In this document: positions 5,451-59,304 of the stretch, in pieces
Layout of the letters: every line of letters begins with the position of its first letter
How positions within the stretch are numbered: position 1 is the first letter of the stretch
Assembly (NCBI GenBank): GCA_902779055.1
Contig: CACZAD010000007.1
Location: forward strand, 186,001-250,000
Direction: 5' to 3'
Length of the DNA: 64,000 nucleotides
From: Fibrobacter succinogenes
GTDB lineage: Bacteria > Fibrobacterota > Fibrobacteria > Fibrobacterales > Fibrobacteraceae
Notes under the pieces: generated by a model
Database searches by the model: none
Told to the model about the DNA's origin: nothing
Seen by the model: only the letters and a program-made list of their open reading frames with translations
Position numbers and translations under genes: made by a program

Positions 5451-5594
5451 CATTGCACTGCTTATATGCAACGCATGAAACAAAATCGTAATCAGCTTGC
5501 TTAGAAATGTGCCTGTAGTGGTGCTATTGTTCTCTTTAATTTGTACATTATTATTAGTGTCCGATAAAACTTTTTAATGATTATATTAAAAAAT

Positions 5595-23595: not shown

Positions 23596-23646
23596 ATTTA
23601 CTGGTGTGGGGCTAGTTTTTAGCCCGTTTTTGTGGTGGGATGTATT

Positions 23647-25797: not shown

Positions 25798-25934
25798 ACA
25801 TTTCTAATCGAAGTGCCGTTTTTTGAGCGGATTCGCATGTATCTAAATAAATTACATCTATTTCCCCGCATATTATTTAACTTTCATTCGGGATTATATG
25901 GTTGCGGAGATTGGGTGAACCTAAAAGGATGTTT

Positions 25935-40369: not shown

Positions 40370-41467
40370 ATGATAAAAAAATCCTTCATAATGGCTCTTT
40401 GGGTGCTTTGTGTGTCTTTGTTTGCTGAGACTCCGGCCCCTGCTGTTGCTGATTCCCTGCAAGGGAACGCTCCAGTGGTTGCGCCTGCCGAAGCATCGTC
40501 TGTGGCCGAAGACGACTCGTCTGACGATGTAAGCCGGGATGAGCCTGCCGAGGAGGATTCCGAACCTGTCATGACGCCTTTGGTGAAGGGCAAGACGGGT
40601 ATCGTGGCTATTGATACGCTCCCTGTGAACGAATGGGACATCCCGACAAAGCGCAATTCGCTTTTGCACGCGATGCTTTTTAGCCTATTGCCCGGTGGTG
40701 GCCAGTATTATACGGAACACTATGTTCGTGGTGGATTCTTGACGGGTATCGAAGGACTCTTGATTTACGACATCTTTTTCAACAGGTCGTTCCAGCGGGA
40801 TAGGCTTTTGGACCGTGCCCGTCCATTCCAGGATTCCGTGCGCTATTTTACGTCAAAGATCCTAAATTCGCCAACCCGCGATAGCATTGGAGCTTATCAC
40901 GCCAAGCGCCTTGAATTCTTGGAGCGTGTCCGTGCGCAGAGCGACAAGAAAATGGAACAAGAAGACGTCCGTAAGGCCGAATTGGCATGGCTTATCGGCA
41001 TACATCTTTACGGAATGTTCGATACGTTTGGCATTTGGTTTAACAATAACCACAGAAGCACCGAGTACCGCGATATGAAAACGGCTGTGCTTTGGGGCTT
41101 GTTGCCGGGTGGCGGGCAAATCTTTAACCGTGACTTTGGTAAGGCCGGACTTGTCTATATGGGTATTCTTGGTGCTGCGGCGAGCGTCTCTACGTCGCAG
41201 AATATGGTTCGGTACTATCTCGACCGCAAGCATTTGATTGAAAAGGAAAGCCCGAATTCCGAGGAATACGAAAGGATCTCGGAACGAGTGACGTATTATC
41301 GAAAGAACCGCAATACCTACATTTGGGGCGGAGTCTTAATTTATCTATACTCCATTGCGGATGCCGCGGTCGATGCGCTCCTGAGTGATTTTGACAGTCC
41401 TCTGCACTTGGCGCTTCTTCCGAATTTTGATGGCGGTGCCCAGGCCGTCGCCACCTTCGACTTCTAA
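40370..41467 (+). CDS. DUF5683-like membrane protein with two LLPGGGQ repeats
   Basis: 365 aa, signal peptide (cleavage near LFA-ET), then an acidic Ala/Pro/Ser region. The core contains two copies of the DUF5683 motif: SLLPGGGQYYTEHYVRGG (about 104-121) and GLLPGGGQIFNRDFGKAG (about 244-261), each beside hydrophobic helices. A two-fold membrane protein of unknown function, common in Bacteroidota and relatives. TATATT lies 9 nt before the ATG, so the 5' UTR is at most a few bases. Confidence 0.75.
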   Translation: MIKKSFIMALWVLCVSLFAETPAPAVADSLQGNAPVVAPAEASSVAEDDSSDDVSRDEPAEEDSEPVMTPLVKGKTGIVAIDTLPVNEWDIPTKRNSLLHAMLFSLLPGGGQYYTEHYVRGGFLTGIEGLLIYDIFFNRSFQRDRLLDRARPFQDSVRYFTSKILNSPTRDSIGAYHAKRLEFLERVRAQSDKKMEQEDVRKAELAWLIGIHLYGMFDTFGIWFNNNHRSTEYRDMKTAVLWGLLPGGGQIFNRDFGKAGLVYMGILGAAASVSTSQNMVRYYLDRKHLIEKESPNSEEYERISERVTYYRKNRNTYIWGGVLIYLYSIADAAVDALLSDFDSPLHLALLPNFDGGAQAVATFDF

Positions 41468-41590: not shown

Positions 41591-42214
41591 CTACGCTTTT
41601 TCCATATTCAGTGGCGGCATCTGGATGCCGTCATGAATCTTCGTGAACGTCCCCTGGAAGGCTCCATTCTTGTTGCGTACAAATTCAAACTTTGTCACCA
41701 TGGCGTAGCTGAACATTCCTTCGACAAAGATATTGTCGGGCAGACCGCAGCGTGAATGCTGGAGCGATGCAATGACGCCTGCATGCGTGATGCAGAGGTA
41801 TTCGCCGTCATCAGAGAGTTTGTCCAAAAAATTTCCGACGCGCTTGTCGATGTCATAAAAATTTTCGCCTTGAGGGAACCTGTACCCGCGGAGGTCGCTG
41901 GTCCAGGCGTGCATCTCCGAACGGGGGACGGCGGTCAGCTTCTGTCCTTCCCACGTTCCGAAATTGAGTTCGATGATGGCGGGTTCCTTTTCGACGTGCA
42001 GGTCCAGCATCTTGGAGGCCTTGTCGGCGAACTTGGTGCAGCGGATGAGCGGACTTGAAAACAAACGAGTTGGCTTTGCGCCTGATTCTACAAGCGCTTT
42101 GAGCGCCTTGTCGGACTCTTCTTCAAAAGTAGGGGAGACGTCAAAGTCCAGTCTTCCGTAACAAACGTCTTTCGGGTTGTAAGGCTTGGTATGTCGAATT
42201 GTCCAAAGAATCAT
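41591..42214 (-). CDS. Histidine phosphatase family protein (CobC/phosphoglycerate-mutase type)
   Basis: 207 aa. The catalytic RHG-type motif is IRHTKP (His8), with FSSPLIRC (second Arg), ELNFGTWEGQ (acid) and CITHAGVIASL (second His) in the expected order. The spacing fits alpha-ribazole phosphatase (CobC), the last step of cobalamin nucleotide-loop assembly, but no cobalamin gene is adjacent, so the substrate stays open. No clear ribosome site before the ATG. Confidence 0.8.
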   Translation of the reverse strand: MILWTIRHTKPYNPKDVCYGRLDFDVSPTFEEESDKALKALVESGAKPTRLFSSPLIRCTKFADKASKMLDLHVEKEPAIIELNFGTWEGQKLTAVPRSEMHAWTSDLRGYRFPQGENFYDIDKRVGNFLDKLSDDGEYLCITHAGVIASLQHSRCGLPDNIFVEGMFSYAMVTKFEFVRNKNGAFQGTFTKIHDGIQMPPLNMEKA

Positions 42215-42434: not shown

Positions 42435-42622
42435 GGGACTATCCGAACACAATTTGTGTGATATAATACACGCCCTTAAACCGGGGGTTCTGGATAGTGG
42501 TCAAAATGGCAGTTTTTTTCGTACTTTCTTCGTAACGAATGTTTTACCGTAAAAAATTTTATACTATATTCAATAGTAGGTGTTTAGGATTTACTGGCAA
42601 GACTTTTTTGTTGGGGTCTGTT

Positions 42623-45600
42623 ATGGAAAAAAGGAAATTTGCAAGAAGAACCGTTTTGGGAACGGTGATGGTGGCGCTTGGTTTATCAGTGCCCGTGATG
42701 GCTCAGGAAGATGAGCCTGAAGTTGAACGTGTTGTTGTCAAGCTGGATCCGTTGAAGTTCTCCGGAGTGACGGACGAGGAACAAGGGCAGAAGCTCTGGA
42801 CCGACCTCATGAAGTACAAACTCTGGGGTACTCAGACTATTATTTTCAATAAGCATGATTTTAAAATTGCCGAGACGAGTGGCTACACTGGAACGGCTGT
42901 TGGTGATGTTGTCTTCAATGACTATGGGCATACGCTTGGTGGTCCGATTGTTTCGGGCAAAGACCTTGTTTTTGCAAAGGGTGCGGCTACGGAAGATACT
43001 CTCATAGGAGGATCGATATACGCCAAGAAACTTTACTTGCCTGATAACTATAAAGTCGAAAATTCCCGGTATGATGGAAATATCTGCTTTGAAGACGATA
43101 TTGTTTTTTCTGCGCCCAACAAAGATGGAGCCGATTGGGAATATTATGAATGGATAAACACCTTAAATCGTTTTATCGAAAATGCTCACAGAGAAATTCT
43201 TGATGACGACCGTAGAAAGGAAGGCAAGGTCTATGCGAACTGGGCCAAGGGTCTTACGGATCCGTCTGCAGTGAAGCTTGATGGTGTCTTTACTGATGAT
43301 CAAGGTGAGGTGAAATGTCCTTCTGATGTTCCGAGACCGGACGTGGGGCTGACCGTACCTGAACTTGATGAATCTGGGATTAGTTGGGAAAACTCTGTTA
43401 GTTTGGTCTCTAGTGATTATGGCGAAGTCCAGTATATTCACATTCCGCCCATTTCTGAAGATGATATCAAGAACGAACATACTTGGTTCGATAAGTATGT
43501 CGAGAATATTGAATTTTTCGGAAATTACGGAAAGAAGCTGTATATCTTGATGCCGTCCAGTCAGCAGAACGCTGATAAAAAGACGACTGGCCGTTTGACT
43601 CGTATCTTTACGCAAAAGGGTATCAATATTCAAAGCTCTGCAAATGATACCAAGATTCAGGTGGCTTACGTCGGTAGCGATGCCTCGTGGGATTCTGACA
43701 ACAATCGATGGAATTTTGACGAAAACGAAATAACCGTAGTCCATGATACCGCTTATGCTGGTAATCTTATGTTCTATACGAATGCGAACATTGATTGGCC
43801 TGCAATGAATGCCAATAGGGAATCCGATTATCAGGGAACCTTCATTACTACGGGTGATTTTACAATCAACGACCACCTCAGTGTTGCCGGTCAGTTGATT
43901 GCTGGTGGTACCCTCTGGTTCGAATCTGAATTCAATGGTGAATTCCACTACGTTCCGTTCAATTCCCCCGAAGTCAAGACCGACATCTTTGTTGCAGACA
44001 AGTTTAAGGAAAATGATAAGGTCTGGTACGATATGAGCTTCTACCTGACCGATACGGCGCATACCGAGGTTTCTCTCGATTACTGCTTTGCTTTCTTTGG
44101 TATCGATCTCGATACGACGGGTGGCAAGTATAATAGGTACAAGACGGCGGACGGTGAATTTGCTCAACCGGCTGATTTGGCTTTGGATGACAAGACGCAT
44201 CCGATGCCGCTCTGCAGCAAGGGTGAAACCGGACACGTTGTCATTAACAAGGGCTCTCGCAAGACTTCTGTCCCTGCATACATAAAGGTCAAGGAAGACG
44301 GCAAGATTGAAGGCGACGAATATATGCTGTTCAAGATTACGAACTTGAACGGTGCCGTCATCTCTGGAAACAAGTTCGATGGTGGCCTTTTGGTCAAGTT
44401 GCTCGATTCCGACAACAAGCCGCCCAAGTTTATCGATCCGGACAAGGTTCAGCTTGCCGTTCCCGAAAACGCAACTGGTGCAATAGCTGGAAAGATTGGC
44501 GCCAAGGATGAAGAAGGCGACGCTTACGTATTCGAAATCGTCGGTGGCAATGGTTCGAAGTATTTTACAATCAACCAGAACACTGGCGTTGTGAGTATGA
44601 AGACCGGTGCAGATGCGTTTGATTATGAAGACTGGATTGTGAACGGTCCTAAATATTATATCGACGTTGAACTCTGCGATGCATCGGCAACTGATTTTAG
44701 CTATCTCCTTTGTGTTGATGGTCGCTTTGCTATTGAAATTACGGATGTCAACGAAAAGCCGTATTTCGATTATGCTGGCATTGCCAACCCCGAAATCAAG
44801 ATTGCCGAAAACGCCCTTTATTCCAGCGACAAGATCAAGTTTGCCGATTACGATACGCAAAGCTCCGATGTCATGTTTGTGAATGACGAAGTGGTTGCCA
44901 TTGGCGGCGATACGGATATGTTCGAAGTGACGCCGAGCGGTATTGTCAAGGTAAAGACGGGCAAGGTTCTCGACTACGAATTAAAGAACCAGTATGAACT
45001 CAAGATCCGTGTCCGTGATGCCAATAAGGATGACAAAGGCGACTTGATTTATCCGGATCTTTATGAGGACATGACGATTACCATCACGGTGACCGATGTC
45101 GATGATGGTCCTAAGTTTGACTATGCTGCGTATAACGGCAACATTGACGAAAACTCTGTCGCCGGAACCGAAGTCAATATGGACGAAGCCATCTACGCCT
45201 CGACTTCGCAGGTGGGCGCTACGATTACTTACAGCTTGATCGATGAGTCGGGCTCGTTCGTGATTGACCCAAGCACGGGTGTCATTTCTGTTGCTGAGGG
45301 CGCAGTCCTTGACTACGAAACAAAGAGTACCTACAAGATGAAGGTGGTTGCATCAGATGCTTCCGGAGCTGCGGATCAAGTTGTACAGACGGCAGCGGCC
45401 GACGTTATCATCAACGTGAACGACTTGAACGAAAAGCCGATCTTTGTTGAACCGACCACGGCTCTCAAGTTCCCGGAAAACGAAAAGGGCTACGAAATCG
45501 GTACGCTCGAATTTGACGATTACGATGTGGCTTCCAAGTTCCGCAACAACAGGTTTGACTGTCTCGAATGCGACGGCCTGGGCTTCTATCTTGATCCGAT

Positions 45601-48373
45601 GACGGGTATCCTTACGACGACCCGCAAGTTTGACTACGAAACCGAAGCCAAGACTTATGACCTTACCATTATCGTTTACGACGCTTCTGGCAAAAAGGAT
45701 CTTACGGCATCGGGAACTATCACGGTTGAACTTACGAACGTGAACGAACCTCCGTATCTGACGGATATCGTGTTTACGGTTCCCGAAAGCGATCCTGTCG
45801 GTACGGAACTCAAGGACAATCTTGAAGCGACTGATATCGACGGCCCGGATATCGTGTTCACGTTCCACGTTCTCGATGGTACAAAGGAAGTCAGCTCGAC
45901 TAAGGAATTCAAGGTGGATCCCAAGACGGGCGTCATTTCTGTGGCTTCGGCTCTGGATTACGAAAAGACGGAATCCTATTCCATCAGAATCCGCGTCAGG
46001 GATGAACATGACGGATATTCTGACACGACTATCACCATTAACGTGATTGACGTGAACGAAGCCCCGTCTGTCAAGGTGGATACCATCTATGTGAACGAAG
46101 ACCAGGTGGTGAACAAGCCGTTCAGTACCGTAAAGACGGACAAGGATGATCCGGATACCAAGAATGCCGACTTCCGCAACAACGTTTACGAAAATACCGA
46201 CGATAATGAATACTTCAGGGTTGATCCGAATGGTGATGTCGTGCTGTTGCAGTCGGTGGACTACGAATCTGATTCGCTCTATACGATCAAGGTTCGTGTT
46301 AGCGATAAGGACGACAGCAAGCTGACTTCGGAAAAGACCGTGGTGGTCAAGGTGGTGGATGTCTTTGAACAGTCCGTCGTCGAAATTACCCGCGTCGAAA
46401 CGCCGCAGTCCATCTACATCCGTCCGGACTCTGTCTGGGTGAATGTTCCGACAGTGGATATCGAATGGAAGCAGGACGATAAGACCAAGTCCAGCACGGA
46501 CTCGCTCAAGGAAGGCTGCAATACTGTCATCAAGAAGTATAAGGATCCGTCCAAGAACGCTGCCGGTGCCGATACGGTTATCATCTGCTATAGCACGGCT
46601 GCTCCGATTGTGACGGTTTCTGCCAATGGCGATGATGTCGAAGCCGACAACATTTATACGGTCGTCGAAAAGGCTACCAAGAACGATACCGCTATCTATG
46701 TGAACGATACCAAGAACGATATCAAGGTGTCGATCAAGGATACGGCTGCAAATGTGTCCAAGTCGTTTACGGTCAAGCTGGATCTGGATACGGTCTCTAT
46801 TCCGTCGAAGGAATTCAAGAACTTGACGAAGGTTGCCGATGCTGAGGTCGCTCGCAAGAAGGAACCTGCTTCTGAAGTCACGTCCACTCCTGAAAACGGA
46901 GACTACATCAAGTATTCTTATACCGAGACTGTCAATGGTATCGAAGTTACTGTTTCATACTATACGGACAAGAAGGGTAAGGATGTCAAGCGTTCCGTGA
47001 TTACCTCGTCGGGCAAGACGAAGGAAATCGCCGTCATCGAAGTCTCTTACAAGACGACGATTAACGGTAAGGAAGTGACCATCTCGTACTATGCCGATGC
47101 CGAAACGGGTGAACGCGTGACGCTCAATACCGGATTGTACGATAGCGAATCCGTCCTCTCTGCTGACGGCGAAGAAGTGACGGGTGCCTATAAGGTTTCT
47201 TACCAGTATGTCGACAAGAACGGCAATACGGTCGATGTCTCTTACTACCTCGACGAAAAGGGCAAGATCGCCAAGAACAAGGAAGGCAACATCGGCTACA
47301 ATGTCGGTTATACCTACGTGAACAAGTATGGCAACTCTTCGAGAAAGGATGTGTTCGTTGTGCTTGACCAGAAGGCTCCTGTTGTAAAGATCGAATCCCC
47401 GTCCGAAGACCAGGTGCTTACGTCCAGCTTTGCTGTCGTCAAGTGGACTGTCAACGGCGTCGAACAGGATACGCTGAGAATCCAGGGCCTTGAAAACGGT
47501 GTGCAGACGATTGTCCGTGTGTTCCGCGACAAGGCTGGTAACGAAGCCCGCGATTCTGTGAATGTCATGGTCAAGAACGTGAAGAACATCAACATCGATG
47601 TCGAAAAGCCGGTGACCAAGATTGACCGTGATTCTGTTGAAAAGTACTACAAGGGCAACAAACCTAACAAGGACCAGACATACTCTGTGACGTTCTTCAA
47701 CTACAGCAAGAACGCCGAATCTGAAGCGATTGTGGGTATCAAGGGCAAGGCCAAGGAAGGTTCTGGCGAAGAACCGTATCCGGGATACGAAGGCGGTCAC
47801 CTCGGACCGACACTCGAGGTCGAAGCTCGCGTGCCTGTGGTGAATGCACTCGGTGGACTGGCTACGCTGGATGATATCGTAAGCGCTGGCGGTTTGGTGG
47901 CCTTGGAAGGCGTCGATGCCGCTAATAGTGAAAAGATTACAGTGAGCGAATACGTGGATAAGTATTGCACGGATGAGTTCAAGAAGTCCCTGACTTCGGA
48001 CTATAGCCGCGCGAACCTCTACTGGACAAAGATCAAGGTGAATGTCTGGGTGTATTCGAACACGGGCGTCTTTACGGATCACCACAGCTTCACGTATGAT
48101 CTTGACGATCCGGATTATGTGAACGAAGCTGGCCTCTTGAAGTTTGACTTTGAACTCAAACCGGACGAAAACGGTGACGTGAGAACGAAGGATGGACGCC
48201 TCTACGGTACGGGCGCCTACCTCTTCAAGACCGAAGTCAAGATGTCTTCGAAGTTGCGTTGCACGCTCCCGCCGATCGGTGAAGACCGTGCCGACCTCAA
48301 GAAGAACGCCGTCATCAAGTCGAGCGACGACCTCCTCAAGCCGTTCGGTTATCGCCGTCCTGTTGACAAGTAA
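42623..48373 (+). CDS. Giant cadherin-repeat surface protein A
   Basis: 1,916 aa from the ATG preceded by GGGG; an upstream in-frame ATG at 42539 lacks support. Signal peptide ends near VMA-QE. Residues about 30-460 form a beta-rich head with KYKLWG and GGPIVSGKDLVF, resembling choice-of-anchor-A type domains, followed by a spacer. About six cadherin-like repeats lie at roughly 600-1250, each with LDYE...Y-x-(L/I)-x-(V/I) and a Ca-binding linker D(V/L)NExP. The C-terminal 660 residues hold three NG-x-x-VTVSYY-x-D-x-KGK repeats, a second beta module (APVVKIESPS...FRDKAGNEA) and a tail domain ending FGYRRPV. There is no T9SS tail. Probably a Ca-dependent surface fibre or adhesin; paralogue of the next gene. 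Confidence 0.85.
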   Translation: MEKRKFARRTVLGTVMVALGLSVPVMAQEDEPEVERVVVKLDPLKFSGVTDEEQGQKLWTDLMKYKLWGTQTIIFNKHDFKIAETSGYTGTAVGDVVFNDYGHTLGGPIVSGKDLVFAKGAATEDTLIGGSIYAKKLYLPDNYKVENSRYDGNICFEDDIVFSAPNKDGADWEYYEWINTLNRFIENAHREILDDDRRKEGKVYANWAKGLTDPSAVKLDGVFTDDQGEVKCPSDVPRPDVGLTVPELDESGISWENSVSLVSSDYGEVQYIHIPPISEDDIKNEHTWFDKYVENIEFFGNYGKKLYILMPSSQQNADKKTTGRLTRIFTQKGINIQSSANDTKIQVAYVGSDASWDSDNNRWNFDENEITVVHDTAYAGNLMFYTNANIDWPAMNANRESDYQGTFITTGDFTINDHLSVAGQLIAGGTLWFESEFNGEFHYVPFNSPEVKTDIFVADKFKENDKVWYDMSFYLTDTAHTEVSLDYCFAFFGIDLDTTGGKYNRYKTADGEFAQPADLALDDKTHPMPLCSKGETGHVVINKGSRKTSVPAYIKVKEDGKIEGDEYMLFKITNLNGAVISGNKFDGGLLVKLLDSDNKPPKFIDPDKVQLAVPENATGAIAGKIGAKDEEGDAYVFEIVGGNGSKYFTINQNTGVVSMKTGADAFDYEDWIVNGPKYYIDVELCDASATDFSYLLCVDGRFAIEITDVNEKPYFDYAGIANPEIKIAENALYSSDKIKFADYDTQSSDVMFVNDEVVAIGGDTDMFEVTPSGIVKVKTGKVLDYELKNQYELKIRVRDANKDDKGDLIYPDLYEDMTITITVTDVDDGPKFDYAAYNGNIDENSVAGTEVNMDEAIYASTSQVGATITYSLIDESGSFVIDPSTGVISVAEGAVLDYETKSTYKMKVVASDASGAADQVVQTAAADVIINVNDLNEKPIFVEPTTALKFPENEKGYEIGTLEFDDYDVASKFRNNRFDCLECDGLGFYLDPMTGILTTTRKFDYETEAKTYDLTIIVYDASGKKDLTASGTITVELTNVNEPPYLTDIVFTVPESDPVGTELKDNLEATDIDGPDIVFTFHVLDGTKEVSSTKEFKVDPKTGVISVASALDYEKTESYSIRIRVRDEHDGYSDTTITINVIDVNEAPSVKVDTIYVNEDQVVNKPFSTVKTDKDDPDTKNADFRNNVYENTDDNEYFRVDPNGDVVLLQSVDYESDSLYTIKVRVSDKDDSKLTSEKTVVVKVVDVFEQSVVEITRVETPQSIYIRPDSVWVNVPTVDIEWKQDDKTKSSTDSLKEGCNTVIKKYKDPSKNAAGADTVIICYSTAAPIVTVSANGDDVEADNIYTVVEKATKNDTAIYVNDTKNDIKVSIKDTAANVSKSFTVKLDLDTVSIPSKEFKNLTKVADAEVARKKEPASEVTSTPENGDYIKYSYTETVNGIEVTVSYYTDKKGKDVKRSVITSSGKTKEIAVIEVSYKTTINGKEVTISYYADAETGERVTLNTGLYDSESVLSADGEEVTGAYKVSYQYVDKNGNTVDVSYYLDEKGKIAKNKEGNIGYNVGYTYVNKYGNSSRKDVFVVLDQKAPVVKIESPSEDQVLTSSFAVVKWTVNGVEQDTLRIQGLENGVQTIVRVFRDKAGNEARDSVNVMVKNVKNINIDVEKPVTKIDRDSVEKYYKGNKPNKDQTYSVTFFNYSKNAESEAIVGIKGKAKEGSGEEPYPGYEGGHLGPTLEVEARVPVVNALGGLATLDDIVSAGGLVALEGVDAANSEKITVSEYVDKYCTDEFKKSLTSDYSRANLYWTKIKVNVWVYSNTGVFTDHHSFTYDLDDPDYVNEAGLLKFDFELKPDENGDVRTKDGRLYGTGAYLFKTEVKMSSKLRCTLPPIGEDRADLKKNAVIKSSDDLLKPFGYRRPVDK

Positions 48374-48401
48374 AGTGTTAACTGTTGATAAATTGAAATC
48401 T

Positions 48402-48442
48402 AAGCGTCTCCCCGGATTTTGTTCCGGGGGGCGCTTTTTTTT
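48402..48442 (+). terminator. Terminator between the two giant genes
   Basis: AAGCGTCTCCCCGGA/TCCGGGGGGCGCTT stem and eight T; the two giant genes are therefore separately transcribed. Confidence 0.85.
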
Positions 48443-48644
48443 GTCCTAGAAAGTCCTATAAAATACGCTTGCTACAGAAAAGCTTTGAAATGCTACACTT
48501 TTCTTACAATATTTCCAAAATTTAATTTTGCTTTAGCGCACCTCGTTACTATATTTCTAGACAGTGTTCGGGTGTTCTTTTGGATAAAACTGTGGCAAGT
48601 CGTCAGAGTGAGGATTTGTCGTGGAAAAGGAGCGATAAAAAAGT

Positions 48645-51600
48645 ATGCGTTTTAGCAAGTTTAGCTTGAAAGCGGCTGCCCTAGTCTTGATGGGCGTGGT
48701 TTCGTCGATGGCCGCAACTACCGGTCTTTATCCGATGACTTTCGGTGACGAAAAAACTGATGATGATAACTGGGAATACTTGCTTCACTACAAACTGTGG
48801 GGACAGACTGGCATATCCTTTGCAAACCAGGATAATTTCCCACGCGAAAAAGGATGGGTAGGTACCTCTGCTGGTGGTGACCTGTATTCTACGGGTAACA
48901 ACGGCGTTGTGGCTGGTGCCATTGTTGTTGGTGGTCGAATCCGTCCTGATGATAAGATGAATTTTACAACGGGGCCTATCCGTCATAGGGATGGCTTTAC
49001 CAGCGGTCAAAACTCAAGTGGAGCGCCTGAATGTCAAGGAACCACGACCTCAGGGTCTTGTGCTGATGTTCCGTTATACAGTTCTTTGAGCGTGCCTACT
49101 GTAAAAAGCGCTACCTATCAGTCTGGTTTTAAAATTGCTGATCGAGCCATAAAAGAAATTCATGTACCTCAAAATGGCTCTTATGATGTCTTTATTGATC
49201 ACATTGACTTTGGTTCATCCAGTGTTTTGAAGGTTGTGATGGACGAAGGTGCCCATTCTACGCGCCTTTTTGTAAAGAACCTTAACTTAAGTGACCACCC
49301 CCATATTCTTGTTCAATACGCAGGAGAAAACAATCCACGTTGTAACTCCAAACAGTACACTTGCGGTGGTGATTACCAAGGAAACTTGCTGATTTATTCT
49401 GCCGGTGATATCGACTTCAGCAATATTGACAATTCTCCGATTGTGGGTACCATTGTCAGTGCTGGTGAAATTTCGATCATGAGTAACATGTCCTTTGCCG
49501 GTCAGTTGCTCGCGAAAAAACTCACTATTGGAAGTGATGTTAACGGCGAAAACTTTGAGTTCATTCCGTTCAAGAAAACGCCGACGCTTACTCTGAATAC
49601 AACGGCTGCAACTTTCCCTGAAAATAACGAATGGACGACCATCGGTGTCAGTTTGGATGACGTTGGTGAAAAAGATGTCACCTTTGAATACTGCTTTGAT
49701 TTCAATTCTTCTGCTGTTACGGGACAATATGCGTCCAAATCCGATGTCGGTGCTGCTGCAACGGATCATCCGTTCCCGATATGCGGTGTAGATGATCGTA
49801 TCAAGATTACGATTCCTGCCGGAAGCAAGGAATCCAAGCAAAAAATTAATATCAAGCCTTTGATTGATGGTCTTATCGAAACTCCTAAGAATAATCAACC
49901 GGGCGAAAAACTCTGGCTTTATATTTATGACCTCCAGGGCGCCATTCCGTCTACCGAAAACTATGAATCCAAAAAAATCGGTGATATGGAGTGCGGTTCG
50001 TTTAACATCTATATCAAGGATGTCGATAAGCTGCCTCAGGGTAACAGCAGCCTCAAGGTGTCTGTCAAGGAAGATGCCGAATACACATTTGCAAAAGGTG
50101 ACTTTAATTTCCAGCATTCTACAAGAACATTTGAATCTGTTAAGATAACTTCGTTGCCGACAAAGGGTTCTTTGCTTTTGAACGGCACAGCGGTGAAGAA
50201 GGATCAGGTCATCACGGTTGCGAACCTTGGCAAGCTGACTTACAAGCCTGTGGCAAATGATTTCAGCAAGACTAAAACTGAAGTCTATGCAACGTTCAAG
50301 TTCAGGGTTATTGGCTCTGGTACTGGTGATAATACGTCTGATGAATACACGGCTAGCGTTAACGTTATCCCGGTCAACGACAAGCCGACGACTGATGCTA
50401 GCTACACTTTCACAGTGAGTGAAAATCCGTCCAAGAATGAATCGCTGGGTAGCGTCACTGTTACAGATGTTCCTAACGAACAGGATGTTGATACCTATAC
50501 ATTCTCTTTGGTTTCTGGGGACAAGGATTGTTCTTCGTGCTTTACGTTGACTTCTTCGGGTGAAGTCAGGGTCAATGGCACACAAACGTTTAACTACTAT
50601 ACAAAGTCCTCCTATACCCTTACGGCAAAGGTTTCGGATGATGCCAAGACCGAAAAGAATTATGGCTTGACCGGAAATCCTGAAACGTCCAAGAACTTTA
50701 CCATTGTCATCAATGTCAAGAACCAGAACCACGCTCCGACCATTAGTAATCAGTCTTTCGATCTTCCGGAAAAGAACAAGACCTCTTCGGGTGTTATCGT
50801 AGATTGGACTAGTGACAAGATTGTTGGTACGGTTTCTGCTAAGGATCCTGATGGTGATAACCTGACCTTTAAGGTTGTGGATTCTGGCATTCCGTTTGCT
50901 TTCAAGAATGGAACGAGTTCGCTCATCGTTTCTGACGGAAGCGTGCTGGATTATGAAACTAAGAAGAGCTGGTCTTTCAAGGTTTCCGTGACCGATAAGT
51001 CTGGTGCATCAGCTACGGCTACCATTACGGTTAACCTCGAAGATGTCAATGAAGATCCGGAGCCAAGTGGCGTAAAGTCCGAATATACGGTTAAGGAAAA
51101 CACTGCAACAGGAACGTCTTTCGGTACGTTCTACGTTACGGATAAAGATGCTGGTGATAAGTTGACTTATAAGCTGACGGGTGCTTTGACGGGTGCCGCA
51201 GCTGCTTCTGGAACATTGAAGGGCAAGACTTTGGCAGACATCTTCTATGTCGAAGAAACTGCAAATTCTAGCAATAAGAGAACTGTTGAAATCAAGGTAA
51301 AGAATGAAGCTTTGCTGGATTACGAAGCTCTTTACAAGTCCAGTTCCAAGAATGCCTCTTATCCGGTGACCATCACGATTACGGATAAGGGTCCGAATTC
51401 TGTAGATGTTGCAACTAAGATTACGGTAATCGATGTCAACGAACCGTTCACGGCTACGGGCGGAACGTTCTATATCCAGGAACATTCTCCGGGTTATTCA
51501 CACGTCTGCACCAAGTCGTACGGTGAATATTGCGCCGAAGCGGACTATGGCAAGGTTAAGGGTGAAGATCAGGATAAGTACAACAAGAGCTTTAGCACCT

Positions 51601-54600
51601 TGACTTATTCGATGTCCACGAAGAATACGGGTTCTTATGCATCTGATGCCAAGAGCTTTGTCGTGGATCCGGATGACGGTAGCATTACTACGTCCATGGA
51701 TGCCGAATTCGAAGCGGATGGAGATGCTCCTAAGATCTCTTATACGTTCAAGGTCACCGTTTCTGATGGCGTGAATTCTAAGGATGTCGAGGTGACTGTA
51801 AAGGTCTTGGATATTGAAGAACCACCCATTAATCTGGTTATCGAAGGTACTGGTAAGGTCAACGAGAACGAAGGCAAGGGCTTCAAGGTTCTGGATATGG
51901 TCTCGGCTGAAGATCTTTCTGGAACGAGTCTGGATGATTTCAAGACCTTGTGCGGTTATAAGGATGATGTTGACGGCGACCTTAATGGTGACGGCAAGGT
52001 TAATGGTGCCGATGTCGATGTTAAATGCAAGGGTAAACTTTCATTTGAGATAGACCAGTCCGCAAGTGGCGTCGCTGAGGGTATTTTCGAAATTGCAAAC
52101 GAAGGAAAGGGTTCTGTTAAGGTCAAGGATCCGACCAAGCTGGACTTCGAAGCTCTGTATGCAAAGAATAAAACGGTTCTTTCTGTCGTATTGACTGCCG
52201 AAAATATTTATGACGGAACTACAACACTTAGCATTACCAGAAATATCGAAGTTATTGACGTGAACGAAGCTCCCACGGCAGAAAACTTGTCTGTTGAAGT
52301 GGACGAGAACATTGCTGGTGGTACTTTGGTGGGGACTGTCAAGGCTACTGATCCTGATAAGTATGCTTCTTGCAAGGCTGGATCTCATTCTTGTGGGTTC
52401 AATACGCTCCAGTATTCGATTGTGAATTCCGCAGGCTTGCCGTTCGAAATTGAACAGAATACGGGTAGGATCAAGCTCAAGAAGAACGAAAGGCTCCGTT
52501 TTATTGAAAAGAGCGTATATACGTTCCAGGTGAAGGTGGTTGATTCGGATAAGAACAAGACTCCGCTGTCGGCTATTGCTAACGTCACTATTACGGTCAG
52601 GGATGTTAACGAAGCTTCTGAATTCAGGGTCTTGGCTGATCTTTACGAAGTCAAGGAAAATACAGCTGTTGGTACAAAGTTTGGCGACAAGATCGTTGTC
52701 TATGACGAAGATGGTGCTGATGTCAGCAAGACCACAGATGCAAATCCGGCATTGAAGATTTCTATCAAGGATAATGGTACTTGCACGGCCGGTAAGACCT
52801 GTGCCGAAGACCTGTTCAATGTTGTCATTGTGAAGGGCACGGATGGCAACCATGAAACGCAGTTCCAGTTTGTTGTCAAGTCTGGCTTGAACTACGAAGC
52901 TCTTTACAGGGCTACGGAAAAGGATGCCATTTTTGATGTGACTTTGACTGTCAAGGATAAGGGCGGTAACGAGGTTTCTCAGGATACAAAGATTCGCGTT
53001 ATCGATGAAAACGAAGAACCTGAATTTGTTGGTGAACCCTATAAGTTTAAGGTCGACGAAAATGTTAAGACGGAAACCTTGCTGGGTACAGTTGAAGCTT
53101 CTGACCCGGATATCTACAACGTAAATTACGGTACGCTTTACTTCTCGCTTGATGCTAGCGATGACGATGCCGCTCTGTTCGATATCGACCAGAAGACGGG
53201 TGAACTCTATGTCGTGAACAATTCCAAGCTCAATTTTGAAGATAAGAGTGAGTACAAGTTCAAGGTTATCGCAACTGACAAGGAATTCACGATTTCGACT
53301 CTTGTTACGGTTACCGTCAATAACGTAGATGAAGGTCCTGTGTTCCCGACGGTTCCGGACTTGTATGTCGATGAAAATACGCCGAAGGGTACGGTGGCTA
53401 CGCTTGATGATGGTACAAAGCAGGCTATCATTGCTAACGATGATGACTGCAGCAACAGGCATACTTGTGCAGCTCCGACCTACACGCTTGTAGCGGCCGA
53501 TGGCGCTCCGAACGATTACAAGGCATTTAGCATTGATGCCAATGGCTTTATCTCTGTGGCCAAGGACAATGTTCTGGATTATGAAACGCAGAAAAAGTAC
53601 GTTGTTCGCGTTGTCGCTACGGATGGTAAGGATCCTACGCTTACGGATGAAGTTGATGTGACAATCCATGTTAGAGACGTGAACGATGCACCGGTCTTCG
53701 ATATGGCTACATATCCGTTCGAAGTGGATGAAAACAAGCCTGCTGGTGAAGTCATTGGTGCTGTCTTTGCAAGCGATCAGGACACTTGGAGCGAATTGAC
53801 CTTTAAGATTGAAGATCTCAAGGCTGGTTCTGGTGATAGCAAGAAGTTTACGATTAGCTCTACGGGCAGAATCAGTACCACAGAAAAATTGAATCACGAA
53901 GATCAGGAAACTTATGAACTCCTAGTTACTGTGACGGATAATGGTTCTTCCAGGGGCTTTGAAGACCTTAGTGCTACAGCCAAGGTGTTCATTACGGTCA
54001 ATGACAGGCCTGATGATCCGGTGATTTACGATGACAAGAAGAGCTATGAGGTGGCTGAAAATACCGCAGAACATCCGATCAAGGATGCAACGATTGCGTG
54101 CTACGAAGTCACGGACGAAGATCTTGGCCAGGTGGAGACACTTGCCGGCTATGTCGTCGATGTTGGCGGTACGGATGCTGATCGCCTGTTTGATGCCACG
54201 GTCAAGAAGGATGGATCGAAGTACAAGCTTTGCCTCTCTGTCAAGAATACTTCGAAGATGAATTACGAAACTCTTGCTCATGAACACTCGATCAAGGTGG
54301 GCGTGATTGACGGCGACGAACGCATGACCGAAGTGGCAAAGACCATTACGATTGTCGACGTGAACGAAATGCCGATTATTTCGGGTAGCCTGGCCTTCTC
54401 GTTCTATGAAAACAAGGGCAAGGATTACGTCCTCGGTAAGCTCTATTCCGAAGATATTGATACGTCTAAGGCCTTTACCCAGAATGTGTTTAGCGCAACT
54501 GGTGGTGATACGGACCTGTTTACGATTACTGAAGATGGCAAGATCAAGGCCAAGCGTAATTTTGACTATGAAACCGAAACCCGTCGTACGTTCGAATTGG

Positions 54601-57419
54601 ATATTCAGCTCGCTGATAAGGATTCCAAGAAATATTCCGAACTGAAGACTTCGACTCGTATTACGATTACGCTCAAGAATGCTCCGGAAATTCCGCAAAT
54701 CACGACCACGGAATTCGATGTCGACGAAAACTCCGAAGAGGGTACGTTCGTTGGACAGCTCGAAGCCGTTGACCAGGATGGCGATACCGATCTTCTCTTT
54801 GCCCTTGCTGAACCTAGCGACTATGTGACTGTTTCTAAGGATGGCAAGATTACCGTTAGCGGTGATAAAAAGATCGATTACGAAAAGATGCAGGAATTTA
54901 CCATTGTGGTCAGCGTGAAGGATCCTGATGGCCTTGTTTCTGAAGCTGAAGTTCTCATTAAGGTGAATGACCTGAACGAACCTCCGACGATTAAGCCGCA
55001 GCAGTTCACGTTCCCGGAAGATTCGCCGATTGGCACCAAGAAGGGCCCGGTCGAAGCCTCTGATCCGGATACGAAGAACAAGAAGTTCAGCGAACTGACG
55101 TTCACGGCTGTTGAACCGAACGACATGTTTGAAATCTTGCCGAACGGTGACATTGAATTGAAGGGCGAACTCGACTACGAAAGCGAAAAGTCCTACACCA
55201 TTAACGTTCGTGTGACGGACGGAACTTATGCGGATACCGCTGCTATCACGATTAACGTGGGCAACGTTGTCGAAAAGTCCGAAGTCAAGATCACGCTCGT
55301 TGAAGCTGGCGATTCCATCTATCCGAATCCCGAAAAGGACATCTTCACGAATCAGGAACAGATTACTGTGGAATGGAAGCAGGATGGCAAGACCAAGTCC
55401 AGTGTCGAGACCTTGAAGGAAGGCAAGAACGTCATTATCAAGAAGTATAAGGATCCGACTAAGGATGTTGAAGGTGCTGATACTGTAATCGTCTACTTCA
55501 GTACGGCAGCTCCGATTGTCGAAGTCAGCGCCACCAAGACGAAGGTTGAAGCCGACAACATCTATACGGTCGTTGAAAGCGTCGATAAGAAGGACTCCTC
55601 GATCTACGTGAACAAGAAGTCCAAGGATGTCGATGTCGTTGTCAAGGATACCGTTTCTGGATATAAGGAAACCTTCACGGTCGAAGTGATTCTCGATACC
55701 ATCGCGGTCTCGAAGAAGACTGTGACGACCCTCGTGGATGTCTCCAAGTCTCAGCCGTCTCTCGACAAGAATCCGAAGGGCGGTGTCTCGGAAACTCCGA
55801 TTAACGGCAACAAGAAGAAGGTTTCTTATACCGAAACTGTGAACGGAACCAAGGTCACGATTTCTTACGAAGTCAACGACAAGGGCGAAATCATCAAGGT
55901 TCCGGTCTTCGACGAAGATGGCAAAAAGTCGATGGTCGAAGTCATCGAAGTTTCTACCGTTGTCGAAGTCAGCGGCAAGGAAGTGGTTGTCTCTTACAAG
56001 GCTGATGCCGAAACTGGTAAGATCCTGTACGGCGATTCCGAAGGCAACTTGATTGTCGATGTCCCGAGCAGCACTGGTACCAAGGATCCGACGTCCAAGG
56101 TGAACAAGGACCCGGATGAAATGGACCTCAAGACGGGTGTTGGTGCCTTCACGGTCACTTACGACTCCAAGGGTGTTCAGGGCAACAAGGCTACGGTCTC
56201 TTACGTCATCGACGAAAAGGGCAAGATTGTTGCTAACAAAGAAGGCGACAGAGGTTACCTCGTGACCTACACCTACACGAACAAGTATGGCAACACTGCC
56301 GAAAAGTCCGTGTTCATGGTGCTTGACAAGCTTGCTCCGCTCGTGATCATCAACTCGCCGAGCGATGGTGACGTGGTCTACGCTAACTTTATCGATGTCG
56401 ACTGGTGCATTGCCATCGATGGTGACAAGGATAACTGCGTCAAGCAGGATACGTTGAACTTCCAGAGCCTCAACAAGGGTGTGACGACCATCAAGCGTAT
56501 CTACCGCGACAAGGCTGGTAACGAAACGGTTGCCGAAGTCAACGTGATGTTGAAGAAGGCCAAGGATGTCGATATCAACCTCGAAAAGCCGATGGTTATC
56601 GTTTCTAGGGATTCTGTTGAAAAGTACTATGCAGAAAATCCGCCTGAGAAGGACCAGACTTATGCAGTGTCTGTCTTGAATCCGACGACCCAGACCGAAA
56701 AGGAAGTGGTGAAGGGTAATGCAAGCAAGTCCAAGAAGGGTTCTGGTGAAGAACCGTATCCGGGACTTGAAGGCCACCTTGGCCCGACGATCAAGGTCGA
56801 TATGAAGGTGCCTCTCGTAAGCCCGGTGGGTGGTCTTTCTACCTTGGACGATATCATTATCAACGGCGATATGATCCCGCTGGATGGTGTTGATGCCGAG
56901 AACAGTAAGAAGATGAACGTCAAGGACTACGTCGACAGCCTTTGCTCTGACGAATTCAAGGAAGAGCTGAACAAGGTTAAGGACTACAGCAAGATGACGC
57001 TCTATGCCTCCAAGGCTCGTGTGTCGCTCTGGTTCTACACGACCGCAGGTCAGTTCATTGACACGTACCATTTCGATTACGACGTCGATGATCCTGATTA
57101 TGTTGACAAGGCCGGTCTCGTGAAGTTCTTCTTCGAAATGAAGCTTGACGAAAATGGCGAACTGAGGGATTCTCGTGGCCGTCTCTACGGTACGGGTCCG
57201 TTCATCGTGAAGACGAAGGTCGATATCCGTTCTAAGCTCCGTTGCACGGTTCCGCCGTTGGATGGCAAGACTAAGTACGGTGACGTGATCAAGTCTAGCG
57301 ACGAAATGCTGAAGCGCTTCGGTTACAGACGTCCGGTGCTTCGCGGAAACGAAAAGTCTTCCTCGAAGTCCTCCAAGAAGTCTTCTAGCAAATCCTCTAG
57401 CAAGTCTTCCAAGAAGTAA
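48645..57419 (+). CDS. Giant cadherin-repeat surface protein B
   Basis: 2,924 aa; signal peptide ends near SMA. It has the same architecture as protein A: a head with HYKLWG and GAIVVGG, about 14 cadherin-like repeats (roughly 580-2215, linkers such as DVNEAP, DVNDAP, DLNEPP), the VSYxxDxKGK region and the tail domain ending FGYRRPV. It adds a Ser/Lys tail of about 25 residues (KSSSKSSKK type). One repeat contains a dockerin/EF-hand-like loop DLNGDGKVNGADVDV (about 1110-1124). AAGGAG lies about 12 nt before the ATG, longer than usual. A TATATT box about 90 bp upstream gives a sizeable 5' UTR. Possibly a cell-surface stalk or substrate adhesin. Confidence 0.85.
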   Translation: MRFSKFSLKAAALVLMGVVSSMAATTGLYPMTFGDEKTDDDNWEYLLHYKLWGQTGISFANQDNFPREKGWVGTSAGGDLYSTGNNGVVAGAIVVGGRIRPDDKMNFTTGPIRHRDGFTSGQNSSGAPECQGTTTSGSCADVPLYSSLSVPTVKSATYQSGFKIADRAIKEIHVPQNGSYDVFIDHIDFGSSSVLKVVMDEGAHSTRLFVKNLNLSDHPHILVQYAGENNPRCNSKQYTCGGDYQGNLLIYSAGDIDFSNIDNSPIVGTIVSAGEISIMSNMSFAGQLLAKKLTIGSDVNGENFEFIPFKKTPTLTLNTTAATFPENNEWTTIGVSLDDVGEKDVTFEYCFDFNSSAVTGQYASKSDVGAAATDHPFPICGVDDRIKITIPAGSKESKQKINIKPLIDGLIETPKNNQPGEKLWLYIYDLQGAIPSTENYESKKIGDMECGSFNIYIKDVDKLPQGNSSLKVSVKEDAEYTFAKGDFNFQHSTRTFESVKITSLPTKGSLLLNGTAVKKDQVITVANLGKLTYKPVANDFSKTKTEVYATFKFRVIGSGTGDNTSDEYTASVNVIPVNDKPTTDASYTFTVSENPSKNESLGSVTVTDVPNEQDVDTYTFSLVSGDKDCSSCFTLTSSGEVRVNGTQTFNYYTKSSYTLTAKVSDDAKTEKNYGLTGNPETSKNFTIVINVKNQNHAPTISNQSFDLPEKNKTSSGVIVDWTSDKIVGTVSAKDPDGDNLTFKVVDSGIPFAFKNGTSSLIVSDGSVLDYETKKSWSFKVSVTDKSGASATATITVNLEDVNEDPEPSGVKSEYTVKENTATGTSFGTFYVTDKDAGDKLTYKLTGALTGAAAASGTLKGKTLADIFYVEETANSSNKRTVEIKVKNEALLDYEALYKSSSKNASYPVTITITDKGPNSVDVATKITVIDVNEPFTATGGTFYIQEHSPGYSHVCTKSYGEYCAEADYGKVKGEDQDKYNKSFSTLTYSMSTKNTGSYASDAKSFVVDPDDGSITTSMDAEFEADGDAPKISYTFKVTVSDGVNSKDVEVTVKVLDIEEPPINLVIEGTGKVNENEGKGFKVLDMVSAEDLSGTSLDDFKTLCGYKDDVDGDLNGDGKVNGADVDVKCKGKLSFEIDQSASGVAEGIFEIANEGKGSVKVKDPTKLDFEALYAKNKTVLSVVLTAENIYDGTTTLSITRNIEVIDVNEAPTAENLSVEVDENIAGGTLVGTVKATDPDKYASCKAGSHSCGFNTLQYSIVNSAGLPFEIEQNTGRIKLKKNERLRFIEKSVYTFQVKVVDSDKNKTPLSAIANVTITVRDVNEASEFRVLADLYEVKENTAVGTKFGDKIVVYDEDGADVSKTTDANPALKISIKDNGTCTAGKTCAEDLFNVVIVKGTDGNHETQFQFVVKSGLNYEALYRATEKDAIFDVTLTVKDKGGNEVSQDTKIRVIDENEEPEFVGEPYKFKVDENVKTETLLGTVEASDPDIYNVNYGTLYFSLDASDDDAALFDIDQKTGELYVVNNSKLNFEDKSEYKFKVIATDKEFTISTLVTVTVNNVDEGPVFPTVPDLYVDENTPKGTVATLDDGTKQAIIANDDDCSNRHTCAAPTYTLVAADGAPNDYKAFSIDANGFISVAKDNVLDYETQKKYVVRVVATDGKDPTLTDEVDVTIHVRDVNDAPVFDMATYPFEVDENKPAGEVIGAVFASDQDTWSELTFKIEDLKAGSGDSKKFTISSTGRISTTEKLNHEDQETYELLVTVTDNGSSRGFEDLSATAKVFITVNDRPDDPVIYDDKKSYEVAENTAEHPIKDATIACYEVTDEDLGQVETLAGYVVDVGGTDADRLFDATVKKDGSKYKLCLSVKNTSKMNYETLAHEHSIKVGVIDGDERMTEVAKTITIVDVNEMPIISGSLAFSFYENKGKDYVLGKLYSEDIDTSKAFTQNVFSATGGDTDLFTITEDGKIKAKRNFDYETETRRTFELDIQLADKDSKKYSELKTSTRITITLKNAPEIPQITTTEFDVDENSEEGTFVGQLEAVDQDGDTDLLFALAEPSDYVTVSKDGKITVSGDKKIDYEKMQEFTIVVSVKDPDGLVSEAEVLIKVNDLNEPPTIKPQQFTFPEDSPIGTKKGPVEASDPDTKNKKFSELTFTAVEPNDMFEILPNGDIELKGELDYESEKSYTINVRVTDGTYADTAAITINVGNVVEKSEVKITLVEAGDSIYPNPEKDIFTNQEQITVEWKQDGKTKSSVETLKEGKNVIIKKYKDPTKDVEGADTVIVYFSTAAPIVEVSATKTKVEADNIYTVVESVDKKDSSIYVNKKSKDVDVVVKDTVSGYKETFTVEVILDTIAVSKKTVTTLVDVSKSQPSLDKNPKGGVSETPINGNKKKVSYTETVNGTKVTISYEVNDKGEIIKVPVFDEDGKKSMVEVIEVSTVVEVSGKEVVVSYKADAETGKILYGDSEGNLIVDVPSSTGTKDPTSKVNKDPDEMDLKTGVGAFTVTYDSKGVQGNKATVSYVIDEKGKIVANKEGDRGYLVTYTYTNKYGNTAEKSVFMVLDKLAPLVIINSPSDGDVVYANFIDVDWCIAIDGDKDNCVKQDTLNFQSLNKGVTTIKRIYRDKAGNETVAEVNVMLKKAKDVDINLEKPMVIVSRDSVEKYYAENPPEKDQTYAVSVLNPTTQTEKEVVKGNASKSKKGSGEEPYPGLEGHLGPTIKVDMKVPLVSPVGGLSTLDDIIINGDMIPLDGVDAENSKKMNVKDYVDSLCSDEFKEELNKVKDYSKMTLYASKARVSLWFYTTAGQFIDTYHFDYDVDDPDYVDKAGLVKFFFEMKLDENGELRDSRGRLYGTGPFIVKTKVDIRSKLRCTVPPLDGKTKYGDVIKSSDEMLKRFGYRRPVLRGNEKSSSKSSKKSSSKSSSKSSKK

Positions 57420-57521: not shown

Positions 57522-57848
57522 ATGGGTATCGAAGAACGTTCTACATTGGTATTTGCAAGTGGTGTCGGTCGTATTAAAGAAGAAAAGCCGAAGGCCGTGC
57601 GCCCGCAGGGCGATGGCGTTGTCCGTATCACGCTAAAACGTCTCGGAGGCGGCAAAATGGCTAGCGTCGTTTCGGGAGTGCCGCTGGACGAAGATGAACT
57701 CAAGGACTTGGCCCGTGTGTTAAAGCAGAAGTGCGGGGTGGGTGGCTCCGTCAAGGATTTCAATATCGAGATCCAGGGGGACAAGCGCAATGTGCTGAAA
57801 GCCGAACTCGAAAAGAAGGGATATACCGTAAAGCTCGCCGGTGGCTAG
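57522..57848 (+). CDS. yciH: SUI1/eIF1-family translation factor (YciH)
   Basis: 108 aa, normal length. The C-terminal SUI1 domain shows VRITLKRLGGGKMASVVSGV, LKDLARVLKQKCGVGGSVKD and the end IQGDKRNVLKAELEKKGYTVKLAGG. Bacterial YciH resembles eIF1 and influences start-site choice during initiation. AGAGG precedes the ATG. Placed between the giant surface genes and the FecR gene, with about 95 bp before the latter. Confidence 0.93.
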   Translation: MGIEERSTLVFASGVGRIKEEKPKAVRPQGDGVVRITLKRLGGGKMASVVSGVPLDEDELKDLARVLKQKCGVGGSVKDFNIEIQGDKRNVLKAELEKKGYTVKLAGG

Positions 57849-57942: not shown

Positions 57943-59304
57943 ATGTTTAGACATCTGTCTTTATGGTGCTTTTTGGTGGCTATTTTTGTTCCTTCGGCTA
58001 TTTATGCCGCTCCAAAGGTCGGTAAAGTTCGAGATCCTTATAATGCAGATATGGGGGTTGCGGCTGAGGGGGCCGCAGGTTGCGATGGCATCCAGTGGGC
58101 ACCTGCGGAGCAGGACAATACCTTTAGGACTAATCACTGTTTTAAGACCGGAAAGGGTGGTTCCGTTCGATTGGAACTGAAGGGCTCCGGAAACATTTTG
58201 TCGATCGATGAAAACTCGCTTGTCAAGGTCGATGAATGGATCACTCCCGATGAAAATAACAAGGGTTCCTATTCCATCAAGACCAGTATCAAGAATGGCT
58301 TTATGGGCTTTAAGGCTGCCAAGAACGAAGGGCATAAGGCTAGCTTCAGGACCGGTACTGCTGCCGCATCGATTCGCGGAACAGAAGGTGTTATTGGTGG
58401 TGACGGCAATGCAACGATGTTTGCCGGATTGAAAAACGGAAAGCTGGCTGTTAGCGATACGGTGACGGGGGATTCCCTTTTTGTGAATGATGGCGAAACC
58501 GTTATCGGACGAAAGCAGTTTGTCGTTCTCAAGCTGAAGTCTTCGGGCGATATGGTCTTTGCAAGAATTTTGATGACGATCATTGCGGATACGACAAAGT
58601 CCCTGGAAGAATTGGCTGCTGCAGCCCAGGCGGCGGACAAGGCCTATCAGGATTCTTTACAGGCGCTGTCTGCTTCCTTGCAGAAGGATTCGGAACAAGA
58701 AAAGGAGGCGAATCTGGCAGTCCCGCAGATCAAGTATTCTTCTTACGATTCTTTGCGCTGTGTGGCTAATGTTGCTGTTTCCAACGTGCAGAAGGGCTCC
58801 GAAGCACGTTTATCTGCGATGATGGATGGGACGACCATTTCTGAGGTGAACGTCAAGCGCAATATGCCGAAGCGCTTTAAATTGCAGAGTGGCGTTCACG
58901 ATTACGAGTTCGTTGTCGAAAATGCGGTTGGCCACAATAGCGTCAAGAAGACGTTGGGCTGCTATCCGTTGAAGTCGTTCTCTGTGAAAGTCTTTGGCGA
59001 CAAGTATGTTCCTCTCCAGGTTCCGCCTGCGCCTCCGAGCGATCCTGACGCCGGAGATTGGATCTTGGAGACTTTGCAGTTCCAGATCCGTGTGCCCGAA
59101 AACGATCCGAGCTTCTTGAATAAAGTGACGGTTCGCCAGAATGGCAAGGTCATTTTGCAGGAACGTCTCTCCCAAATCCAGAACCTGGATTACCAGATTC
59201 CGGTTGAATTGAAGCGTGGTCAAAAGACTCGTTTTGTTATCGAAGTTGTTCACAAGAGTGGCTATGTTGTCAAGACGTCCAAGGTCTATGGGGTTAAAAA
59301 ATGA
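57943..59304 (+). CDS. Secreted FecR-domain protein
   Basis: 453 aa, signal peptide ending near IYA-AP; GAGAGG before the ATG. The FecR domain covers about 60-190, with the signature FRTGTAAASIRGTEGVIGGDG near 131-151. There is no N-terminal transmembrane anti-sigma part, so this is an exported protein using the fold structurally, and not a sigma-factor regulator. A short Ala/Gln-rich helical segment (about 215-255) precedes Ig-like beta domains. The last four bases overlap the start of the next gene (ATGA), so the two are translationally coupled and likely partners. Confidence 0.8.
   Translation: MFRHLSLWCFLVAIFVPSAIYAAPKVGKVRDPYNADMGVAAEGAAGCDGIQWAPAEQDNTFRTNHCFKTGKGGSVRLELKGSGNILSIDENSLVKVDEWITPDENNKGSYSIKTSIKNGFMGFKAAKNEGHKASFRTGTAAASIRGTEGVIGGDGNATMFAGLKNGKLAVSDTVTGDSLFVNDGETVIGRKQFVVLKLKSSGDMVFARILMTIIADTTKSLEELAAAAQAADKAYQDSLQALSASLQKDSEQEKEANLAVPQIKYSSYDSLRCVANVAVSNVQKGSEARLSAMMDGTTISEVNVKRNMPKRFKLQSGVHDYEFVVENAVGHNSVKKTLGCYPLKSFSVKVFGDKYVPLQVPPAPPSDPDAGDWILETLQFQIRVPENDPSFLNKVTVRQNGKVILQERLSQIQNLDYQIPVELKRGQKTRFVIEVVHKSGYVVKTSKVYGVKK

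Follow-up and report, generated by a model that had tools for sequence, protein, structure and literature searches.

We determined that two tandem genes of a gut Fibrobacter, cadA and cadB, encode giant cadherin-repeat proteins whose last 120 or so residues form a domain that recurs at the C-termini of giant GH9 cellulases and PA14 proteins of the same genome. This tail is most likely an unrecognised C-terminal surface-sorting or anchoring domain carried on a calcium-stiffened adhesin, and the overall model, in which a calcium-type rod is sorted to, or anchored at, the cell surface by its tail, is one that we consider probable, with some reserve.

The two genes occupy the plus strand of the 64-kb window (the whole stretch of DNA that was analysed) as tandem open reading frames (42539..48373 and 48645..57419), confirming the pair of tandem giant cadherin genes that a first-pass annotation had described. 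The first frame is open from 42539; translation of CadA probably starts at the in-frame Met29 (42623), because a normal signal peptide follows directly (MEKRKFARRTVLGTVMVALGLSVPVMA, cleaved before QE). CadA is then a predicted adhesin of 1,916 residues with six cadherin repeats (42623..48373), and CadB one of 2,924 residues with 14 (48645..57419). Both carry Sec signal peptides, assigned by inspection and by agreement with published predictions for strain S85: that of CadA comprises 27 residues (MEKRK...VMA, followed by QE; 42623..42703) and that of CadB 23 (48645..48713), which are the cleavage positions reported for the S85 proteins FSU_2931 and FSU_2932, respectively. Between the genes lies a hairpin with a T run (48408..48431, plus strand) that resembles an intrinsic terminator by pattern match only, and on account of which cadA and cadB may be regulated separately.

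Pfam recognises cadherin domains in six stretches of CadA (E 3.8e-57) and 11 stretches of CadB (E 8.3e-86), with PF00028 scores of 191 and 283 bits, respectively, against a curated cut-off of 28.8, and a family profile trained on the repeats of the two proteins counts six in CadA (44450..46354) and 14 in CadB (50406..55259), the approximate numbers proposed on first reading. As the whole genome yields 16 cadherin matches (E 0.001), every one of them within cadA and cadB, the anatomy originally ascribed to the pair is right. Judged by sequence motif, the repeats of both proteins are strongly enriched in predicted calcium-binding residues: the XEX motif is found in 18 of the 20 repeats (frequency 0.39 in shuffled repeats), the D/N-Y-E motif ([DN][YFH]E) in 17 (0.015 in shuffles), and a DxN[ED]-type linker in 14 (0.055 in shuffles), while a count of DxD across the same 20 repeats revealed no enrichment over shuffles. 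The first-pass annotation had named an absence of calcium-binding residues in modelled linkers as an argument against its own proposal; at the level of sequence motifs, such residues are present. Calcium stiffening is a known behaviour of cadherins, by analogy with which the CadA and CadB stalks would likewise be stiffened. Within repeat 5 of CadB, a dockerin-like or EF-hand-like loop (DLNGDGKVNGAD, window 51967-52034) coincides with an 18-bp tandem duplication; assignment as a dockerin (CadB residues 1112-1123) was rejected, as there is one loop only and it is missing from all relatives checked.

Beyond the repeats, each protein continues into a C-terminal block of about 670 residues (CadA, 46355..48370; CadB, 55260..57416), and the two blocks align from residue 1281 to 1942 (numbering of the CadA ORF) and from residue 2214 to 2898 (CadB) with 51% identity. 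The CadA block is beta-rich, with three VSYY-type strands as well as an Ig-like domain. The VSYYxDxKGK module that had been pointed out in both proteins is thus present as three such strands in each, but is less exact in CadB; similarly, both proteins have the FGYRRPV ending, but CadB runs on into a Ser/Lys-rich extension (57336..57416, with 12-bp tandem repeats at about 57354-57417), which is shared by the CadB proteins of the closest clade and by one protein from a horse gut. Structure prediction for the tail, proposed as a check in the first-pass annotation, was run on the CadA block (mean pLDDT 88), within which the tail (47996..48361 in CadA, 56985..57335 in CadB) is modelled as a beta domain with the FGYRRP stretch as its last ordered strand. 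Foldseek matched the whole block mostly to generic beta-sandwiches with TM-scores near 0.1, and its matches, which include PorU and SiiE, are no proof of a CTD fold; a PDB sequence search with the block profile returned nothing useful, and Pfam gave weak, Ig-type matches.

The tail itself, which no Pfam or NCBIfam model matches, is characterised by a conserved G-T-G-x-Y, a terminal FG[YFI][KR]R-like strand and an extreme C-terminal position. A profile of its approximately 120 residues matched 12 proteins of the genome, in all 12 at the C-terminus: CadA, CadB, three giant GH9 cellulases (GH9 by Pfam; 1,945-2,169 residues, in tandem on contig C16), six PA14 proteins (two on contig C35, two on the minus strand of C54, and one each on C19 and C14, these last two below the Pfam cut-off), and an orphan of 424 residues. 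As PA14 is a domain listed for fibro-slime proteins, we refer to the PA14 set as fibro-slime type. Like the giant GH9 cellulases, these proteins resemble CadA and CadB in their C-terminal residues but differ in lacking cadherin repeats and in having other N-terminal functional domains. In the GH9 trio (L125, 652-19819), fn3-like domains and long unassigned regions precede the common tail; the gene for the orphan (contig C26; L128, 1154-2428) adjoins a phage-type integrase gene.

A tail profile built from cadherin proteins only matched the three GH9 tails (E 1.6e-9 to 1.6e-12), and matched neither reversed sequences nor any of the five other window proteins to which it was compared, three of which have the known T9SS tail. 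On single PA14 tails this profile was marginal (E 6e-4 to 0.7, one tail giving no match), and a PA14-type tail profile that included the orphan matched the cadherin/GH9 tails with a probability of 98% (E 2e-14). The tail is as unusual as had been supposed, but not private to cadA and cadB, being common to giant cellulases and fibro-slime-type proteins as well. It was detected in 36 of 81 sampled genomes of the phylum, comprising all 27 of the genus Fibrobacter, six of the eight that represent the family's other genera and, with weak matches, three of another family in the class; by these sequence matches, it is confined to one class within the phylum. An open-access literature search yielded no description of the tail or of its sharing among the three protein classes, although one may exist elsewhere.

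One alternative is that the tail is a divergent type A CTD of the type IX secretion system (T9SS), cleaved on export, in which case the novelty would amount to a missing annotation. The genome encodes SprA (1,306 bits) and 54 proteins above the TIGR04183 cut-off of 23 bits; the motif order of the tail (vYtnlGxFV ... GTGAYiyK) parallels that of type A CTDs (VFDxxGrxV ... GiYmVrV); Foldseek lists PorU among its matches to the entire block; and CadA and CadB share with type A cargo (TIGR04183; related to BTD/FPm-1 in Fibrobacter) a Sec signal and a modelled beta domain at the extreme C-terminus, where such cargo has a seven-stranded, Ig-like CTD fold. However, when we examined by sequence whether the tail is a T9SS CTD, TIGR04183 did not match the CadA and CadB tails even at E 5, and none of the 12 tail proteins was among the 85 TIGR04183 matches at E 0.1, so that the two sets are disjoint. 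Furthermore, the tail profile showed no significant similarity to 23 T9SS CTDs of the same genome (probability 3 to 6.5%), the tail is less basic (pI 4.9-9.7, versus a median of 10.1 for those CTDs), and it ends in a separate conserved FGYxRP strand. The presence of SprA does not discriminate, since all 81 genomes of the phylum encode it. We regard this alternative as a substantial possibility that falls short of likely; on its sequence, the tail may be either a CTD that has diverged or a domain of its own for sorting or docking. Within the window, T9SS type A tails are found in three large ORFs (25902-28661, 23632-25749 and 5577-8162), the last of which is near the cut-off and also contains TIGR02543 repeats.

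The outer-membrane step is probably T9SS, given SprA in the genome and a Sec signal in proteins that have neither a lipobox nor an autotransporter barrel recognised by Pfam or NCBIfam. A type V autotransporter was rejected, as Pfam and NCBIfam gave no membrane beta-barrel match. Giant RTX/SiiE-type adhesins resemble CadA and CadB in their long calcium-binding beta-sandwich stalks, and the C-terminal block has SiiE among its fold matches, but these adhesins are exported by type I secretion without Sec signal peptides; as CadA and CadB carry Sec signals, that route was also rejected.

At the other end of the protein, the CadA head consists of a beta-helix part (42704..43993) and a Calx-beta-like domain (44012..44413), both with approximate bounds. 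The CadB head (48714..50405) is homologous to it, the two being alignable at about 26-28% identity, in keeping with the shared head noted at the outset. The AlphaFold model of the CadA head, a prediction that the first-pass annotation had likewise suggested, was built with 52 family sequences (m41ba69ff4b7f; mean pLDDT 90, pTM 0.89) and contains many short strands, as in a beta-helix, followed by a beta domain that Foldseek matches to Calx CBD1 (3e9t/3ead; prob 1.00, TMt 0.66-0.71). The best long match of the beta-helix is weak (prob 0.54, TMt 0.23, rmsd 26) and is to a domain of tapirin (6n2b), a cellulose adhesin; Pfam gives weak matches to the beta-helical families Ice_binding, DUF7305 and bactofilin in the heads of some family members. 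A PDB sequence search with the head profile produced no useful match to any chain, and Pfam found no carbohydrate-binding module in the cadherin proteins or their heads. On the basis of the model, the head is read as a putative beta-helical adhesive tip, with which CadA and CadB would bind the plant cell wall or other cells.

Strain S85 encodes two consecutive proteins annotated as cadherin domain proteins, FSU_2931 (Fisuc_2377) and FSU_2932. These are likely the counterparts of CadA and CadB, respectively, as judged by tandem locus tags, annotation, cleavage sites and, for CadB, mass (318.9 kDa, versus 317.9 kDa for FSU_2932), rather than by sequence comparison. Both were detected in S85 cell-envelope proteomes, one of them being predicted to reside in the outer membrane, which, together with the signal peptides, supports an envelope location where a surface location had been claimed. 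CadA and CadB are conserved Fibrobacter cadherin proteins, annotated in S85, of which we found no study; the open-access papers on FSU_2931 and FSU_2932 do not describe the head or the tail. Outside the phylum, cadherin domains in a polysaccharide degrader are represented by CabC and CabD, bacterial cadherin proteins of Saccharophagus degradans; we know of no head or tail that these have in common with CadA and CadB.

As FSU_2931 was detected on glucose, in addition to another cellulose, and the cadherin proteins are without a carbohydrate-binding module by Pfam, they might serve cell-cell adhesion, biofilm formation or envelope structure and have no link to cellulose. In contrast, FSU_2932 was detected on microcrystalline cellulose only (two peptides), the tail is common to cellulases and PA14 proteins, and the beta-helix finds its best long match, albeit a weak one, in a tapirin domain. 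Detection of the S85 proteins on cellulose is weak and inconsistent and does not support a cellulose-specific role, and we consider a function unconnected with cellulose a genuine possibility, if not the expected one.

It has also to be considered whether the tail serves in docking or multimerisation by binding an outer-membrane or complex partner common to its carriers, these being exported otherwise, for example by type II secretion. Papers on S85 propose Sec and type II secretion, type II and type III secretion having been favoured by Burnet 2015 (PMC4668043), and the fibro-slime protein FSU_2502 has been reported in one outer-membrane-vesicle complex with cellulases, OmpA and TPR proteins. 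Burnet 2015 also found the S85 fibro-slime proteins mostly in the medium, which counts against sorting to, or anchoring at, the surface by the tail. Conversely, the extreme C-terminal position of the tail in 12 of 12 proteins is typical of sorting signals, and no partner gene for tail docking was identified; we consider docking rather unlikely. For the BTD/FPm-1 domain, Raut 2019 (PMC6851124) proposed a role as T9SS signal, while listing the GH9 enzyme FSU_0809 without it. This S85 protein, whose presence in the envelope without a recognised T9SS or BTD signal speaks for sorting or anchoring by the tail, we infer to be the counterpart of the giant GH9 proteins from its GH9 family, its mass of 233 kDa and its tandem partner FSU_0810.

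From the six versus 14 repeats, the first-pass annotation had concluded that repeat number expanded by recombination. A recent expansion is unsupported: the repeats are old, and most of those in CadA and CadB best match the repeat in the equal slot of close relatives, mostly with 44-89% identity (a few CadB repeats fall below this range, or are offset by one slot where the adjacent repeat went undetected), while repeats within one protein share at most about 45% identity over the matched part. Counting across relatives, as had been suggested, revealed six repeats in each complete CadA of the close clade and 14 in each complete CadB (refined profile, named loci), numbers ranging from 2 to 16 family-wide. 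In a tree of the C-terminal block, CadA and CadB of the close clade form sister groups, and repeat class changes about 15 times across 80 proteins, compared with 39 times with shuffled labels. Repeat gains and losses did occur, but long ago for the CadA/CadB pair; the sister-group topology could also stem from gene conversion between the C-terminal blocks of tandem copies. That six versus 14 reflects ongoing recombinational length variation is very improbable, for although several changes fall on the tree, including between tandem paralogues, the numbers are constant in the closest clade, each repeat has its own counterpart in the other species, and neither cadA nor cadB contains long DNA tandem repeats. 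One Fibrobacteraceae member (L081, ORF from base 3001; 2,990 residues) has only two detected cadherin repeats, which begin at residue 2144, so that other sequence fills its first 2,100 residues.

A contig search with an alignment of the C-terminal block yielded 58 loci. The named relatives among these belong without exception to Fibrobacter or Fibrobacteraceae/Fibrobacterales and come chiefly from ruminants and horses, which supports a gut Fibrobacter as the source of what had been taken for a rumen bacterium. Searches of 24 other Fibrobacter genomes located such cadherin proteins in 23, the match in the remaining one (G001) being limited to the tail of another protein. The family follows a common plan, in which a head of about 500-700 residues is followed by between 2 and 16 repeats and then by a C-terminal block, in most members 650-770 residues long, that ends in FGY[KR]RP; five proteins from sister genera of the family also follow this plan, their repeats numbering 5 to 11. 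The gene neighbourhood is conserved as well. In a survey of 76 loci, several of them overlapping or incomplete, a DUF5683 protein and a histidine phosphatase lie upstream in 46-47, a SUI1-like factor nearby in 29, and downstream a FecR-like protein in 31 and a 770-residue protein in 21. In the window, the corresponding neighbours are the DUF5683 protein (40370..41467, plus strand) and a CobC-like histidine phosphatase (41591..42214, minus strand) upstream, and a SUI1/YciH-like translation factor (57522..57848, plus strand) downstream. The 770-residue protein conserved downstream of the cadherins (window 59301-61613) has a signal peptide and a C-terminal phenylalanine and no significant Pfam or NCBIfam match; it could be an outer-membrane barrel.

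In the model that we favour, CadA and CadB would be Sec-exported extracellular adhesin rods, the outer-membrane step probably being taken by the type IX secretion system. A beta-helix and a Calx-beta domain would form the N-terminal tip, which a stalk of six or 14 calcium-stiffened cadherin domains would keep distant from the cell, and a beta-rich stretch of about 550 residues would connect the stalk to the C-terminal domain of about 120 residues, of which FGYRRP is predicted to be the last beta strand. This domain would serve as a lineage-specific surface-sorting or anchoring module for cadherin adhesins, giant GH9 cellulases and PA14 fibro-slime-type proteins. A narrower proposal, that the tail defines a separate sorting or anchoring class of the Fibrobacter lineage that works in parallel to the ordinary T9SS signal and directs to a single surface site the giant GH9 cellulases, the PA14/fibro-slime-type proteins and the cadherin rods, is quite possible but stops a little short of probable.

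The cadherin genes were already annotated in S85; what is new is the C-terminal domain common to cadherins, GH9 cellulases and fibro-slime-type proteins. This domain could serve as a rule for annotating about ten proteins in each Fibrobacter genome, lists likely members of one surface system, and is a concrete target that can be deleted. Fibrobacter is a leading rumen cellulose degrader without cellulosomes, and how it keeps hold of cellulose, for itself and for its enzymes, is a long-standing question. According to the S85 genome paper (PMC3079729), all of the cellulases lack the FPm-1 domain and every other anchoring domain reported. The common occurrence of the tail points to one shared means by which the cellulose machinery is placed or held at the cell surface. 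If the narrower proposal is true, the tail would be the anchoring domain found missing in S85, at least for the giant GH9 enzymes.
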